DNA of 64,000 nt from Thermanaeromonas sp. GTDB taxonomy: Bacteria; Bacillota; DSM-521; Neomoorellales; Neomoorellaceae. Position numbers and translations under genes: made by a program. The first letter of the stretch is position 1, and each line of letters opens with the position of its first letter. The notes under the pieces were generated by a model that worked only from the letters and a program-made list of their open reading frames with translations, was not told the origin of the DNA and did not search any database. The stretch lies in NCBI RefSeq assembly GCF_021890735.1, contig NZ_JAKKUR010000001.1, positions 41,792-105,791 of the forward strand, read 5' to 3'. This document shows positions 52,808 through 61,634 of this stretch, in pieces.

Positions 52808-52832
52808 ATAAAAACCCCGTTAACAACGGGGC
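52808..52832 (-). terminator. Terminator of small ORF
   Basis: GCCCCGTTGTTAACGGGGTTTTTATTTT. Confidence 0.88.
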
Positions 52833-52851
52833 CCTACGCTGGATGTCTGTT

Positions 52852-52965
52852 TTAATTCTTATCTTCTGCTACCTTCTCTACATTGATACCCAACCATTTC
52901 AGGCGCTCAAGCCAGTTTTCCGGGTTAAGCTCTGGATATACGCTGAGTTCGCTTTCGTGGTTCAT
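52852..52965 (-). CDS. Small protein, 37 aa, unknown function (not in ORF track)
   Basis: MNHESELSVYPELNPENWLERLKWLGINVEKVAEDKN; SD TAGGAGGCGGCGATT-ATG; own promoter and terminator. Confidence 0.75.
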   Translation of the reverse strand: MNHESELSVYPELNPENWLERLKWLGINVEKVAEDKN

Positions 52966-53008
52966 AATCGCCGCCTCCTAGGTGCAAAACTTAATCTTTG
53001 TTCTTTAT

Positions 53009-53036
53009 TCTATAATACCTTTAGGTATTTTCGCAA
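53009..53036 (-). promoter_or_regulatory. Promoter with palindromic operator for the 37-aa small protein
   Basis: TTGCGA - 16 bp - TATAGA; AATACCT-AA-AGGTATT palindrome (53014-53029) fills the spacer and touches the -10. Confidence 0.65.
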
Positions 53037-53104: not shown

Positions 53105-53785
53105 TTAAACCCAATCTTTAAGAAGTTCCGGCCGTAGGACGGTTATCCGCTGCCTCTCTACTTTAATAGCTCCTAGGCGCTTAAATTCTCCTAAAATCCT
53201 GGCGACGGTCTCTCTGGAGGCGCCTATTAGATTTGCTATTTCTTGCTGGCTTAAGGACAAGACAATGGTCACTCCATCGTCTTCCTTCTCCCCGTATTCC
53301 TCGGCAAGATTAAGCAACATACTAGCCAGCCGGCCGTAAGCTCCCTTGAGGGCTAAATCCCGGATATGGAGCTGAGCTTGTCTTAACCTCCGGCTCATCA
53401 CTTTAATAATCTTTACTGCTATCTCACCATGCCGGCGCAACAGTTCTTCCATATCTTCGTTCCGGATATAACCTACTTCAGTATCCTCCAAAGCCTGGGC
53501 AGTAGCAGGATAAGGACCCCCGTCGAAAAGGACAACTTCGGCAAAAATCTCCCCTTCCCGAACAAAATGGAGAATTTTTTCCCGTCCGTCCTCTAATACC
53601 TGGAAAAGTTTAATGGCTCCTGATTTAACAAAGTAAAACGCCTTCCCCGGCTCTCCTTCGAAGAAAATATAGGCATTCTTAGGGTACCGCCTGGTCAGAG
53701 CTAGGCCAGCGATCTTCTTAAGGTCTTCCTCCTCCAGATCGGCAAAAACAGGTATCTGCTTCAGATACTTCCAGGCTTCCTTCAC
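53105..53785 (-). CDS. Crp/Fnr-family transcriptional regulator
   Basis: cNMP-like domain; HTH LSQQEIANLIGASRETVARILGEFKRLGAIKVERQRITV. Confidence 0.95.
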   Translation of the reverse strand: MKEAWKYLKQIPVFADLEEEDLKKIAGLALTRRYPKNAYIFFEGEPGKAFYFVKSGAIKLFQVLEDGREKILHFVREGEIFAEVVLFDGGPYPATAQALEDTEVGYIRNEDMEELLRRHGEIAVKIIKVMSRRLRQAQLHIRDLALKGAYGRLASMLLNLAEEYGEKEDDGVTIVLSLSQQEIANLIGASRETVARILGEFKRLGAIKVERQRITVLRPELLKDWV

Positions 53786-54213
53786 CTACTATCCTCCCCC
53801 GCTCCTCCGGGCTTATCTGTCCTGCTACTCCGGCAATGCGCGCACAAGCCATAAAATTCTAATCTGTGGTAATAAACATCGCCTACCCCGGTTTTCTCTA
53901 CCTCCCTTTCCAGCTCACCGCGCACTGGTATATCCACATCCTCCACCCGGCCGCATTTCAAGCACACGAAATGATAGTGGTTTTCAGGGTTACCGTCATA
54001 CCGGCTGTAAGTGCTACCGTAACTTAACTCCATGATCTGCCCATCTTCCTTAAGAATGGCCAGATTCCTGTAAACTGTACCCAGGCTTATGCTCGGGAGC
54101 ACCTTGCGGGCTTGGTCGTAAATCCAGTCGGCTGTGGGGTGGGACTTTGTACTGCGCAGAATCTCCAATATCAGCCTCTTTTGTTTGGTCATACGCCTGA
54201 TTACCCGCTTCAT
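53782..54213 (-). CDS. Fur/PerR-family metalloregulator
   Basis: SLGTVYRNLAILKEDGQIMEL, RYDGNPENHYHFVCLKCGRVEDV, CAHC. Confidence 0.95.
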   Translation of the reverse strand: MKRVIRRMTKQKRLILEILRSTKSHPTADWIYDQARKVLPSISLGTVYRNLAILKEDGQIMELSYGSTYSRYDGNPENHYHFVCLKCGRVEDVDIPVRGELEREVEKTGVGDVYYHRLEFYGLCAHCRSSRTDKPGGAGEDSR

Positions 54214-55731: not shown

Positions 55732-56487
55732 CTACTCTAATGCTATAACTTCCCTTCTTCTCTCCCTAAAGGTCACAAGTTTGGTATAACCTATTCTTTT
55801 GAGTAGGCGAATGGCTTTCTCCCGGCTTCTACCCACCTCCTCCGGACTATGAGCATCCGAAGACACGGTTACCGGAATGTTAAGCTCAAAGCAGCGCTCC
55901 AACAGCTCCACCGAAGGGTATATTTCTCCCACCAGCTTGTACAATCCTGCAGTATTTACCTCCACTGCCACACCGGCCCGGGCGACAACCCTAAGGGCAG
56001 GCTCAGCCAGCTCCACCACAGGCCTTCGCGGCCTATGTCCGTATAACTTTATCAGATCTAAGTGCCCAATTATCTGGAAAAAACCGCTGGAAGCAGCCCG
56101 GGCAACCAGTTCAAAATAAACACTGTAAAGCTCGTCCATATCCCAATCAGCATAAAAGGCCTCTCCGCCCGGGCTGTCAAACCCCCAAGCCCCAATATCG
56201 TGAACAGAAGCGATAAGGTAATCCCAGGGGCGGGAGGCAACAGTCTCTAAATCACACCTGTCAGGCCGGAAGCTAACCTCCAGCCCCCTCTTTATTTCTA
56301 TAGGAGATAACCGGCGTAACTCTTCAAAAACCTTAAAATCCAGGCCGTAGAGGTATTCATCGTGCTCGGCAAAACCGAGTTCTCTCAAGCCCTGCTTTTG
56401 AGCCGCTTCAACATAAGGCCACAGCCGTTCTATCGTATGAGGCGGACCGATATGTCCCAAGCCATGGACATGCAGATCAGTACTCAT
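55732..56487 (-). CDS. PHP-domain protein (histidinol-phosphatase/HisJ-like)
   Basis: STDLHVHGLGHIGPP; GFAEHDEYL; EVNTAGL; SSDAHSPEEVG. Confidence 0.88.
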   Translation of the reverse strand: MSTDLHVHGLGHIGPPHTIERLWPYVEAAQKQGLRELGFAEHDEYLYGLDFKVFEELRRLSPIEIKRGLEVSFRPDRCDLETVASRPWDYLIASVHDIGAWGFDSPGGEAFYADWDMDELYSVYFELVARAASSGFFQIIGHLDLIKLYGHRPRRPVVELAEPALRVVARAGVAVEVNTAGLYKLVGEIYPSVELLERCFELNIPVTVSSDAHSPEEVGRSREKAIRLLKRIGYTKLVTFRERRREVIALE

Positions 56488-57310
56488 TGGGCAACTCCTT
56501 AAGCTGCGCCAAAGTGAACACCGGGCCGTCCAGACATACGTATTTGCTTCCCAAGTTGCACCGCCCGCATTTTCCGATACCGCACTTCATGCGCATCTCC
56601 AGGGTGGTAACAATCTGGTCGTCTTTGAAGCCCAACTTCTCCAGTACCTGCAGGACAAACTTAATCATTATGGGCGGCCCGCAAGTTACCGCTACCCTGC
56701 CTTGAGGCGTAGGCTTAAGCTCCTCCACAAAGGCGGGAACAAAACCTTCGTGCCCGGTCCAGGTGTCGTCTCCTTTGTCTACTGTGACGTCTACACGGCA
56801 ATTCTCCACTTTAGGCCAGTTTTCAAAAAGATCCTTCTTAAAGCACAGGTCAGCCGGTGAGCGGGCCCCGTAGATGATCCACAAATGCCCAAATTTATCA
56901 CGGTGTTCAATACAGTAATTGATCAGGGAGCGTACCGGGGCCAGCCCTATACCGCCGCCGATGAAGAGAACGTCTTTACCGTAAAACATTTCCAGGGGGA
57001 ACCCGTTGCCATACGGACCCCGTATGCCAACGGTCTGGCCTACCTCAGCTTCATGAAAGGCCTCCGTCAGGGTGCCCACTTTTTTAATAGAAATCTCCAG
57101 GTGTTCAGGCCCCTGCGAAGTAATAGAAAACATGGCTTCTCCCACGTTTAATAATGATAACATAGCTAGCTGGCCAGGTAAAGGAGTAAATGGTTTACCT
57201 TGGTCGGTAGTTATATAAAAAGTCTTTATATCCGGCGTCTCCTCAACGATGTTTATGATCCGGCCGAGCTGCGGTACCAAAGGATTCCCGTTTCTAAAAC
57301 TTTCAGCCAT
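56477..57310 (-). CDS. FAD/NAD(P)-binding oxidoreductase subunit (FlxA/AsrB/HydG-like) with 2Fe-2S motif
   Basis: LFIGGGIGLAPVRSLINYC; CGIGKCGRCNLGSKYVC. Confidence 0.88.
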   Translation of the reverse strand: MAESFRNGNPLVPQLGRIINIVEETPDIKTFYITTDQGKPFTPLPGQLAMLSLLNVGEAMFSITSQGPEHLEISIKKVGTLTEAFHEAEVGQTVGIRGPYGNGFPLEMFYGKDVLFIGGGIGLAPVRSLINYCIEHRDKFGHLWIIYGARSPADLCFKKDLFENWPKVENCRVDVTVDKGDDTWTGHEGFVPAFVEELKPTPQGRVAVTCGPPIMIKFVLQVLEKLGFKDDQIVTTLEMRMKCGIGKCGRCNLGSKYVCLDGPVFTLAQLKELPNEY

Positions 57311-58307
57311 CCAAGGCCACCTCCTTTATGGCCTGGATTATTTTGGTGATATCCATATGCACCGGACAGCGTTCCAAGCAACGGCCACATCCCACGCAAC
57401 CCAGCTTACCATAGCGCTCGGGGAAGTACCGGAGCTTGTGTAAAATGCGGTTGCGTACCCGTTCTTTCCTTGTCGGTCGGGGATTATGGCCGCCGGCCAT
57501 GCGGGTGTACTCTGCAAACATACATGAATCCCAGCACCTAAATTTAAAACCCTCATTGCCCCGGTTTTCGCTCTGAATGTCGAAACAGTGACAGGTGGGG
57601 CAGAGAAAGGTACAGGCCGCACAACCTACACATTTGTGCCACAGGTCATCCCAGAAGGGATGCTCAAACATCCTTTGGAGCTTTTCCGTAACCCCTTCCG
57701 GGTCTACCTCCAACGAAGGACGAGCCCCAGCAGGAGGTTCCTCAGATACCTCGGTCAATAGAGTTCCTACCTTATCCAGAAGAGCCTTGCCCCTTTCACT
57801 GGTGGCTTGCAAGAGGTACCCGTCGTCTTTCTCCCAGGCCTGGATATCCACTCCCTCGGCCCGGGCCGGGTCGACGCCTAAGGAGGTGCAAAAGCAAGTA
57901 TCTAGTGCTTCCCGGCAGGCCAGGGCTACTACCAAGGTATTCTCCCGCCTCCGGCGGTAGAATTCATCCACATACCCTTTGGTAAGGAAAACGTCGTCTA
58001 AAAGCAAAAGACTCCGTGCGTCGCAAGAGCGCACCCCGACCAGCACGCACTTTTGTTGGGGAAGAGAAAGCTCCTCTAAAAAAGCCGCCTGGCCTTCTAC
58101 ACGGTATCGGTACATTTCTTCCGTACGCGGGAAAAATAACTCCTTGGGCGGCAAAACTGTGCTTCCGGGTTTAAAAGTTACTTCTGCCTGCCCGGTCCAG
58201 GGGCGGAAGGTGCTGACACCGTCCTCTTCCTGGGGAGTATATACCACAGCCTCCTCCGACCATACAGATAAAACTTGGGGTAATTTATCTCTTTTAACCT
58301 TTAACAT
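57303..58307 (-). CDS. 4Fe-4S dicluster protein (FlxB/AsrA-like)
   Basis: CVGCAACTFLCPTCHCFD and CVGCGRCLERCPVHMDI. Confidence 0.85.
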   Translation of the reverse strand: MLKVKRDKLPQVLSVWSEEAVVYTPQEEDGVSTFRPWTGQAEVTFKPGSTVLPPKELFFPRTEEMYRYRVEGQAAFLEELSLPQQKCVLVGVRSCDARSLLLLDDVFLTKGYVDEFYRRRRENTLVVALACREALDTCFCTSLGVDPARAEGVDIQAWEKDDGYLLQATSERGKALLDKVGTLLTEVSEEPPAGARPSLEVDPEGVTEKLQRMFEHPFWDDLWHKCVGCAACTFLCPTCHCFDIQSENRGNEGFKFRCWDSCMFAEYTRMAGGHNPRPTRKERVRNRILHKLRYFPERYGKLGCVGCGRCLERCPVHMDITKIIQAIKEVALDG

Positions 58308-58321
58308 TTCAGCACCTCCCT

Positions 58322-59227
58322 CTAGACAAAGTAATCAGGATCCTCTGTCCGGTAGGTACCCAAAGGTGGCGGGGTTTCCGTATCCAGGCCGGCTTCATAC
58401 GGTCCGAAGAGTTCGTTAAGATCTTTGATTATCTTCCTGTGCAGGCTCATGATGGGAATCCCCACCGGGCATACCCGCTCGCACTCCCCGCACTCAATAC
58501 AGCGTCCCGCCACATGCAATGCCCGGGTTAAACCGTAAAATTCATTTTCAGTTTTAACTATGCGCTTGCTGCACCAACCGGATTGGGAACGATCGAAGAT
58601 GCACTCCCGGCAGTTGCACGCCGGGCACACGTTGCGGCAAGCGTAACAGCGCAAGCACCGTTCATACTGCTTTGCCCAAAACTCATAACGTTCATCAGGA
58701 CTTAAAGCCAGTAAGCGTTCTACTTCCGTAAAGCGGTCCCGGGGCTCCTTTTCCCCTCTACCGGGTAACTTCTCGCCTGTATTGATGATCTCGTCAAAAA
58801 TCACAGGTTCCGGACGGGTACAAAAAGTACATCTTTCTTCTAAGTCAATCGTTTCCAAGGCCTCCGGGCCTTTCCCCCGGGCCTTACGAGCATCCCGCAC
58901 CCCGGGACATGTGATACCGATGATATATACTTTCTCCCTCTCTATCTGCTGGTCCTGCAGGAGCCTGTTTATACCCTTCGAATCGCATCCTTTTACGAAC
59001 AGCGCTACTTTCCCCTCCAGCTGGGTAAAATCCAGGAGATACTTGGCCAAATTGTTGGCGCAAAAATCATCCCAAATTAAGCGCTCCACTTCCTCCGGAC
59101 GGCGTACGAAAGCCGGCGAAGAATGATACCATAAAGAACCCTTCTCCCAACCGATAACCCATTCAACCTCACCTTTGGCAAGGAGCTCCTGGGCGCGTTC
59201 CCGCATCCTTTCGGTGATCTTGTTCAT
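58322..59227 (-). CDS. Iron-sulfur protein with FrhB-like N-terminus (FlxC-like)
   Basis: CLRCYACRNVCPACNCRECIFD; CIECGECERVCPVGIPI. Confidence 0.82.
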   Translation of the reverse strand: MNKITERMRERAQELLAKGEVEWVIGWEKGSLWYHSSPAFVRRPEEVERLIWDDFCANNLAKYLLDFTQLEGKVALFVKGCDSKGINRLLQDQQIEREKVYIIGITCPGVRDARKARGKGPEALETIDLEERCTFCTRPEPVIFDEIINTGEKLPGRGEKEPRDRFTEVERLLALSPDERYEFWAKQYERCLRCYACRNVCPACNCRECIFDRSQSGWCSKRIVKTENEFYGLTRALHVAGRCIECGECERVCPVGIPIMSLHRKIIKDLNELFGPYEAGLDTETPPPLGTYRTEDPDYFV

Positions 59228-59661
59228 ACCACATCCCTCAGCTTCCTATTGGGGCCTAATGCCCTGATCTCTTCGGTCATTTGGGTAATTATTTCTGCAA
59301 AACGAGGGCCTTCCGAGCCCGAAACCCAGCGCACCCTAAACCGAGCGGGCTCAATGCCTATAAATTCTAGAACACGCTCTAACACCAGCAACCGCCGGCG
59401 GGCGTGATAATTGCCACTAACATAGTGGCAGTCGCCCGGGTGTCAACCGGCCACCAGCACACCATCCGCTCCGCGTTGGAAGGCACGGAGAACAAATTGC
59501 GGATTTACCCTCCCAGAACAAGGTACCCGTATAATGCGGACATTGGCCGGATAACTAAGACGGTTTAGCCCTGCCAGGTCCGCGCCAGCATATGCGCACC
59601 AGTGGCAACAGAAAGCAATTATCTTAGGCTCCCAACGACTGGCCTCTTGATTTACAGACAT
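59224..59661 (-). CDS. mvhD: MvhD/FlxD-type electron-transfer subunit; in-frame UGA at 59443-59445 predicted as selenocysteine
   Basis: [72 protein letters not shown][U][39 protein letters not shown]...RKLRDVV; UGA replaces Cys of GCHPGDCHY. Confidence 0.9.
59412..59430 (-). other. SECIS-like stem-loop of mvhD
   Basis: TGCCACTATGTTAGTGGCA, 8-bp stem starting 12 nt after UGA. Confidence 0.7.
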
Positions 59662-61634
59662 GCTGCATCCACCTCCGCTAGTATCTGCTCGTTGGTAAAC
59701 CCGCGCAGGTTCAGGGCACCAGACCTGCATACAACGGTGCAGGAGCCGCAACCTTGGCATAATCCCATATTGACACTGGCTACCCGGCGGGCTACGGTCT
59801 TACCTGCCACCCTTTCGGTAATGGTCTTCATATCGATGGCCTTATATGGGCAGACAGGCTGGCAAAGGCCGCAACCCGAACATAAATTTTCGTCCACCGT
59901 AGAGATCATGGGATCGGTAGCCATCTCATCTTTGCTTAAAAGCTGGCACACCTTCACTGCCGCGCCACTAGCCTGGGCCACTGTATCCGGTATATCCTTG
60001 GGCCCCTGACAAGCCCCCGCTATGAACACTCCTGCCGTATAGGTTTCCACCGGACGCAGTTTAGGATGGGCTTCCTGGAAAAAGCCGTCCTTATCCGTGG
60101 CCAACCCCAACATCTTGGCCAATTCTTCCCATCCGCGACTGGGCACCATAGCTGTGGCCAGAACCACCAGGTCCGCAGCCACCGTGACCTGCCTACCTAA
60201 CAGGGTATCCTCGCCGCAGACGATAAGTTTGTCTCCTTCCTGATAGATACGGCTTACCCGACCTCGAACGTATACTGCTCCTTCGTGGACGGTCCGCGAA
60301 TAGAATTCTTCATAAGCCTTGCCCGGTGTACGGACGTCCATGTAGAATACAATAGCCTGGGCGCCCGGTATCTTCTCTAGCACCTGGTGGGCATGTTTGG
60401 CCGTATACATACAGCACGCCCGGGAACAGTAACTTTTACCCTTAGCCTCATCACGCGAACCTACGCATTTGATAAATACTACAGTCTTAGGCTCCTTACC
60501 GTCTGAGGGCCGTACGATCTTACCGCCTGTGGGGCCAGAGGCGCTGTTCATACGTTCAAAATGCATACCGGTGATGACGTCTGGGTAGCGGCCATAACCG
60601 TACTCTCCGTATACTTGCTCCCAAGGGAAAAGTTCATAGCCCGTAGCTACAACGATGGCCCCGAAGCTTTCCGTGACTACCTCATCCTGCTGCTCGTAGT
60701 CTATCGCCTTTGTAGGACAAACCTTCTGGCATACCCCGCACTTCCCCTTGGTGAACTGGCGGCAGTGCTCCTTGTCGATAACCGGCACGGCGGGAACGGC
60801 CTGCGGAAAAGGTATATATATGGCCTTACGCTTGCCCAAGCCTAAATCAAACTCACTGTCCACCTTAGTCGGACACTTCTCCCAGCACGTACCACAACCC
60901 GTACACTTGGTAGCGTCCACCATACGGGCTTTCTTGCGGATCGTTACCTGGAAATTACCTACGTACCCCGCTACCTGTTCCACCTCAGCATAGGTTATAA
61001 CCTGAATTTGAGGGTGCTGCGCCGCAGCAACCATCTTAGGCGTGCTTATTCAGGCAGAACAATCAAGGGTAGGGAACGTCTTATCCAGCTTGACCATGTT
61101 CCCCCCTATGGTAGGCTCACGGTCCAGGAGGACCACCTCATATCCTGCATCGGCAATATCTAAAGCCGCCTGCATACCCGCTATGCCAGCCCCTATTACT
61201 AAGGCCCGCTTGGTAATGGGGATGGTACTGGGTTTAAGGGGCGCATTGAGGCAAGCCTTGGCCACAGCTACGCGTACCAATTCTATAGCCTTTATTGTAG
61301 CTCCTTCTTTGTCCTTGGCATGAACCCACGCACACTGTTCACGGATATTGGCCATCTCTAAGAGGTAGGGATTTAGCCCCGCACTTTCCAGGGTTTTACG
61401 AAAGGTGGGTTCGTGCAGCCTGGGGGTGCAAGAGGCTACCACTACGCGGTTCAAGCGCTGTTCCTTAATGGTCTTACGAATAAGCTCCTGACCGGGGTCC
61501 GAACACATATACTGGTAATCAGTAGCAAAAACTACACCGGGAAAGCTCCGGGCCGCCTCTGCTACCCGCTTAACATCCACCACCGAAGCAATATTTGTCC
61601 CGCAGTGGCAAACGAATACCCCTACCCGCTTCAA
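59652..61634 (-). CDS. hdrA: CoB-CoM heterodisulfide reductase-like subunit HdrA; in-frame UGA at 61050-61052 predicted as selenocysteine
   Basis: 61634-61050 and 61034-59652 are in the same frame; read-through gives [10 protein letters not shown][U][16 protein letters not shown] at the conserved Cys of FPTLDCxxCxxTPKM. Confidence 0.92.
61013..61032 (-). other. SECIS-like stem-loop of hdrA
   Basis: GGTTGCTGCGGCGCAGCACC, starts 17 nt after UGA; resembles E. coli fdhF element GGUUGCAGGUCUGCACC. Confidence 0.75.

Follow-up and report, generated by a model that had tools for sequence, protein, structure and literature searches.

Bacterial proteins shorter than 50 aa, though conserved, are easily missed by annotation. 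The stretch of DNA analysed here (64,000 nucleotides from Thermanaeromonas sp., below called the window) raises the question whether a 37-aa reading frame behind a Crp/Fnr-family regulator gene is a real gene, and what its product might do. The first-pass annotation had described a full minus-strand unit at 52808-53036, and the promoter, palindrome, AGGAGG, ORF, and terminator were all found there. The features of the locus are the following.

52811..52835, minus strand: intrinsic terminator of the small open reading frame (smORF) transcript; hairpins also lie 3' of many orthologs
52852..52965, minus strand: 37-aa microprotein gene (smORF), MNHESELSVYPELNPENWLERLKWLGINVEKVAEDKN; orthologs and purifying selection
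52974..52979, minus strand: Shine-Dalgarno sequence AGGAGG, 8 nt ahead of the ATG
53007..53036, minus strand: sigma-70-type promoter, TTGCGA plus TATAGAAT; 9 of 12; kept in 12 orthologs
53014..53029, no strand assigned: palindrome AATACCTAAAGGTATT; present, probably incidental
53105..53785, minus strand: Crp/Fnr-family regulator (crp), 139 bp upstream of the smORF
53782..54213, minus strand: Fur/PerR-type regulator, sharing 4 bp with crp and likely on the same transcript

The 37-aa frame as a conserved gene

A search of 61 relatives recovered clear smORF orthologs, and a profile was built from 15, then 21 members. The profile matched 17 of the 22 genomes of the window's class and 22 of 399 sampled genomes of the phylum; one extra phylum match (E = 0.005-0.007) lay inside a long frame and was discounted. 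A contig scan with a strict pattern confirmed 5 loci only. Orthologs were found at 26 loci in 25 genomes, covering at least 8 families of one phylum and including Moorella species; a purine-rich Shine-Dalgarno sequence was seen in orthologs as well. Comparison of the window smORF with that of the sister species gave a dN/dS of 0.13, indicating purifying selection, rather than a ratio near 1, the value which the first-pass annotation had named as counting against the gene. When five pairs were pooled, 35.5 synonymous and 43.5 non-synonymous differences were counted over 129 and 480 sites, respectively (p = 4e-6, binomial), with pN 0.09 versus pS 0.27. The microprotein had no significant match in Pfam, NCBIfam, or PHROGs (best E 0.03 or worse, from single members only), its PDB search returned one chance match (E = 0.81), the viral collection held no relatives, and nothing on this gene was found in the literature. 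Judged by its orthologs and substitution pattern, the smORF is a real, conserved, and previously unnamed microprotein family, with a clear signature that is kept in several families.

The predicted smORF transcript is about 200 nt long and has its own promoter and terminator, and such an RNA could be the functional product as a small regulatory RNA, instead of the peptide. However, selection was seen on the amino acids while synonymous sites diverged freely, and Rfam gave only a sub-threshold match to a CRISPR repeat. We consider a purely RNA-level function extremely improbable.

Alignment of 21 members showed a nearly invariant core with the consensus W[LVI]xxLxWLG[IV]xVE[KEG]P, in which W18, L22, L25, and G26 were invariant in 21 of 21. 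The flanks of this core were free in both length and sequence, and family members ranged from 36 to 51 aa. AlphaFold2 predicted a single helix at residues 15-25 with moderate confidence (pLDDT up to 86 in this block) and the remainder as extended, a model that was uninformative on a partner. Most of the 21 members were acidic and hydrophilic, and none of them had a membrane-like segment, the maximum 19-residue hydropathy being 0.49 in the family and -0.39 in the window protein. The microprotein thus modelled would be soluble, and its conserved part would be a short amphipathic helix with a strand-like tail. A short protein with a tryptophan-bearing amphipathic helix might also be a small membrane-active peptide or a type I toxin. 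That reading does not agree with the acidic, hydrophilic composition and the absent membrane segment, nor with genes that were chromosomal, mostly single copy, and retained beside crp; no Rfam antisense RNA and no viral relatives were found either, and only a very slight chance is left to it. A metal or redox role of the microprotein itself, as raised in the first-pass annotation, is also unlikely, because cysteine occurred in only 1 of the 21 aligned members and no histidine was conserved.

Promoter, palindrome, and transcript

The -35 element TTGCGA lies at 53036-53031, and two -10 registers fit equally well, TATAGA at 53014-53009 (spacing 16) and TAGAAT at 53012-53007 (spacing 18). The sequences ahead of the smORF in 12 Moorella-family genomes aligned as cTTGCG[A/T]aaa followed by a GGTATTATAnAAT-like sequence, so that TTGCG[A/T] and a TATAnAAT-like -10 element precede 12 orthologs of this family. 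The promoter motif was also tried as a regulon signal and rejected: in the tested genomes, all matches at 0-1 mismatch were at the smORF itself, except one other in G014. Since the matches were nearly confined to the smORF, the promoter is, as far as the alignments tell, conserved and gene-specific, and no regulon motif. In one genome (G007; locus L007 on C1), about 190 bp extra stood between the conserved promoter (749309) and the ORF (start codon near 749604), which was not the case in its close relative G009.

The perfect palindrome AATACCT-AA-AGGTATT (53029-53014) sits between the -35 and -10 elements, from which the first-pass annotation had suggested repression; it would then be a repressor operator, and the smORF product would act in a stress or metal response under local regulation. 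The comparison with orthologs spoke against this: they lacked the left arm, and the right arm falls within the conserved -10 region. First-order Markov copies of the region contained a 7-bp-arm repeat in 12% of cases, and 10% of the 139-bp tiles across the window had one. Furthermore, the genome-wide motif search gave no excess, with one exact copy and, at <=2 mismatches, 17 sites versus 13 for the reversed control. As an operator, AATACCTNNAGGTATT was neither kept at orthologous promoters nor repeated in the genome. The palindrome is probably incidental and peculiar to the window genome, and with conserved Cys and His also lacking, the operator reading is very improbable.

The gap between crp and smORF was free of terminators in the measured genomes, save one weak match in G015, and read-through from crp is therefore likely. 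The first-pass description of the unit as self-contained held for its own promoter and terminator, but not for its separation from crp. The smORF is probably also transcribed by read-through from crp besides its own promoter. Given this gap and the 4 bp overlap of fur and crp, the three genes may be transcribed together, with the smORF at the end of the transcript and served by a promoter of its own as well.

Linkage and co-occurrence with the Crp/Fnr regulator

The smORF was found directly behind crp in 18 genomes, and the gap measured 127-146 bp in 11 of 14 measured genomes, covering three families. Crp orthologs were called at E <= 1e-65. By this cut-off, the Crp ortholog was present in 18 of 19 relatives with the smORF versus 6 of 42 without it (Fisher p = 2e-9, uncorrected for phylogeny and genome size); outside the window's own family the association gave p = 0.007, likewise uncorrected for phylogeny. 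Six of six further smORF-bearing genomes also had it, making 24 of 25 in total; the exception was G021, in which the smORF was present and the Crp ortholog undetected. In G018, G019, G131, and G135 the Crp ortholog was present elsewhere in the genome, unlinked to the smORF, and simple linkage is thus an insufficient explanation. The Crp/Fnr proximity pointed out in the first-pass annotation looks meaningful in view of this adjacency and of co-occurrence even when the genes are unlinked. The Fur-type gene did not share it: it adjoins crp in the window and lies 2-3 kb off in most relatives, so the proximity does not support a specific link between Fur and the smORF.

The Crp ortholog was also missing where the smORF was missing: in the window's family from G002, G004, G005, and the incomplete G017, in its order from G020, and in the class of G131 from G054 and G095. 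It was found without the smORF in G051, G058, G032, and others, which makes the dependence one-sided, and no diverged smORF lay behind crp in smORF-lacking genomes. On the Crp tree, the smORF label required 4 changes, compared with a mean of 8.6 after shuffling; a single old origin of the smORF with some losses is possible on this tree. The smORF-lacking relatives within the window's family had small genomes, and the co-occurrence is partly owed to shared ancestry, to adjacency (joint loss), and to genome size.

The window Crp carries PF00027 and PF13545 and has a CRP-like recognition helix, SRETVARIL (SRETVxRIL). CRP has an Arg-Ser that contacts cAMP, and FNR has Fe-S cysteines. Although the regulator is a member of this family, PYPATA replaces the cAMP-contact Arg-Ser, the window protein contains no cysteine, and no cysteines are conserved, so that the Fe-S cysteines are absent. 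Lacking both, it has no known ligand, and it appears from its residues to be an orphan, cAMP-independent regulator.

The genes on the other sides of the smORF varied. On its 3' side, fmdB-tpr followed in the window, G006, G015, and the second copy of G023; a response regulator and kinase in G001, G012, and G003; MoxR-VWA-tpr in G053, G130, G094, G062, G102, G011, and others; and tpr immediately in G131. The second smORF of G023 (L065, C110:119389-119466) lies 27 kb from the first and precedes fmdB-tpr, and it is not behind crp. By eye, bshB1 was ahead of the smORF and bshC ahead of bshB1 in G062, G102, and G131 (L069, L071, and L070); bacillithiol-type bshC/bshB1, assigned by sequence, were also near the smORF in G023 (L064). 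In G018 (L062), G019 (L059), and G021 (L063), a 50-aa four-cysteine mini-protein, for example MAKVTEVARCGNCGKLYRKDGLRLVSEFWGPKSLCRKCYQVYQYRQWGYW, was encoded directly 5' of the smORF, with an almost invariant QWGYW end. The genes crp - MoxR ATPase - CoxE-type VWA - membrane TPR formed a conserved block (L057, L060, L064, L066-L069, L071, L073), and in G032 MoxR came immediately after crp, with the smORF missing between them.

Such neighbourhoods allow a different partner. The microprotein might, independently of Crp, help another protein or complex, for instance a core machine or the membrane-anchored TPR protein, its place behind crp being inherited gene order. In about 14 loci the TPR gene was no more than a few kb downstream, in G131 it followed the smORF immediately, and the 5' neighbours changed with the lineage (crp; bshC-bshB1; the four-cysteine mini-protein). 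Against this, the Crp ortholog was present even when unlinked, and the crp gap was unusually constant. We rate this account as a serious possibility, short of probable.

Another account attaches the microprotein as an accessory to the MoxR ATPase - CoxE-type VWA pair (AAA_5, PF05762), its core resembling the N-terminal helix of VWA. MoxR and VWA were downstream of the smORF in about 10 loci, and hhalign mapped the core onto VWA residues 9-28, but with a probability of 0.3% and E = 0.2. The pair is a frequent downstream neighbour in relatives, but it is not near the window smORF, and the window genome lacks this VWA. Used as a control gene among the same relatives, VWA showed no association with the smORF (p = 0.33): 13 of the 19 smORF-bearing relatives had no VWA ortholog, MoxR-VWA was often found in genomes without the smORF, and no hidden smORF was seen beside 9 MoxR-bearing loci. 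A MoxR-VWA accessory is accordingly quite improbable.

A candidate role in the Crp circuit

Fixed spacing and near-absence without Crp make a modulator or a dedicated output of the adjoining regulator the simplest reading. We tentatively propose, from gene order and co-occurrence, that the microprotein could work in the pathway of this Crp in one of these two capacities. The sigma-70-type promoter of the smORF would drive its transcription, probably supplemented by read-through from crp; the helix of the microprotein would then dock on a protein, most plausibly the Crp/Fnr regulator encoded upstream, and the docked microprotein would tune Crp activity. As the second choice under this model, the microprotein would instead be a dedicated output of Crp. 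The region upstream of the smORF was searched for a CRP-like TGTGA-N6-TCACA site; none was found, counts being at chance, and the missing site mildly favours partner over target. We infer both the binding to Crp and the direction of its effect. The pathway link as a whole we hold to be possible but short of probable, and direct binding takes roughly half of that credence. In a more specific form of the proposal, the microprotein would be the dedicated protein ligand of this cAMP-independent Crp, made from the same transcription unit, with a peptide standing in the place of the small molecule; this form we hold to be rather unlikely.

SpfP, a 15-aa small protein of E. coli encoded on Spot 42 RNA, is a reported regulator of CRP (PMC11955535), and by analogy it shows that the principle of a small protein regulating CRP exists. 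The likeness would consist in a very small protein in a Crp-family circuit, which for the microprotein is a proposal only. SpfP differs in being encoded inside an sRNA, in acting with the cAMP-binding CRP, and in its 15 aa, whereas the microprotein is longer and is encoded by a separate gene that follows a Crp lacking the cAMP-contact residues; the two were compared by description. The smORF has one specific candidate partner in the Crp/Fnr regulator, and if the link to Crp is true, it would show how orphan regulators are controlled in acetogens and their relatives.

Elsewhere on the minus strand of the window (56477-61034), genes for sulfite-reductase AsrA/AsrB-like proteins and an HdrA-like iron-sulfur protein were named by eye from the ORF list.
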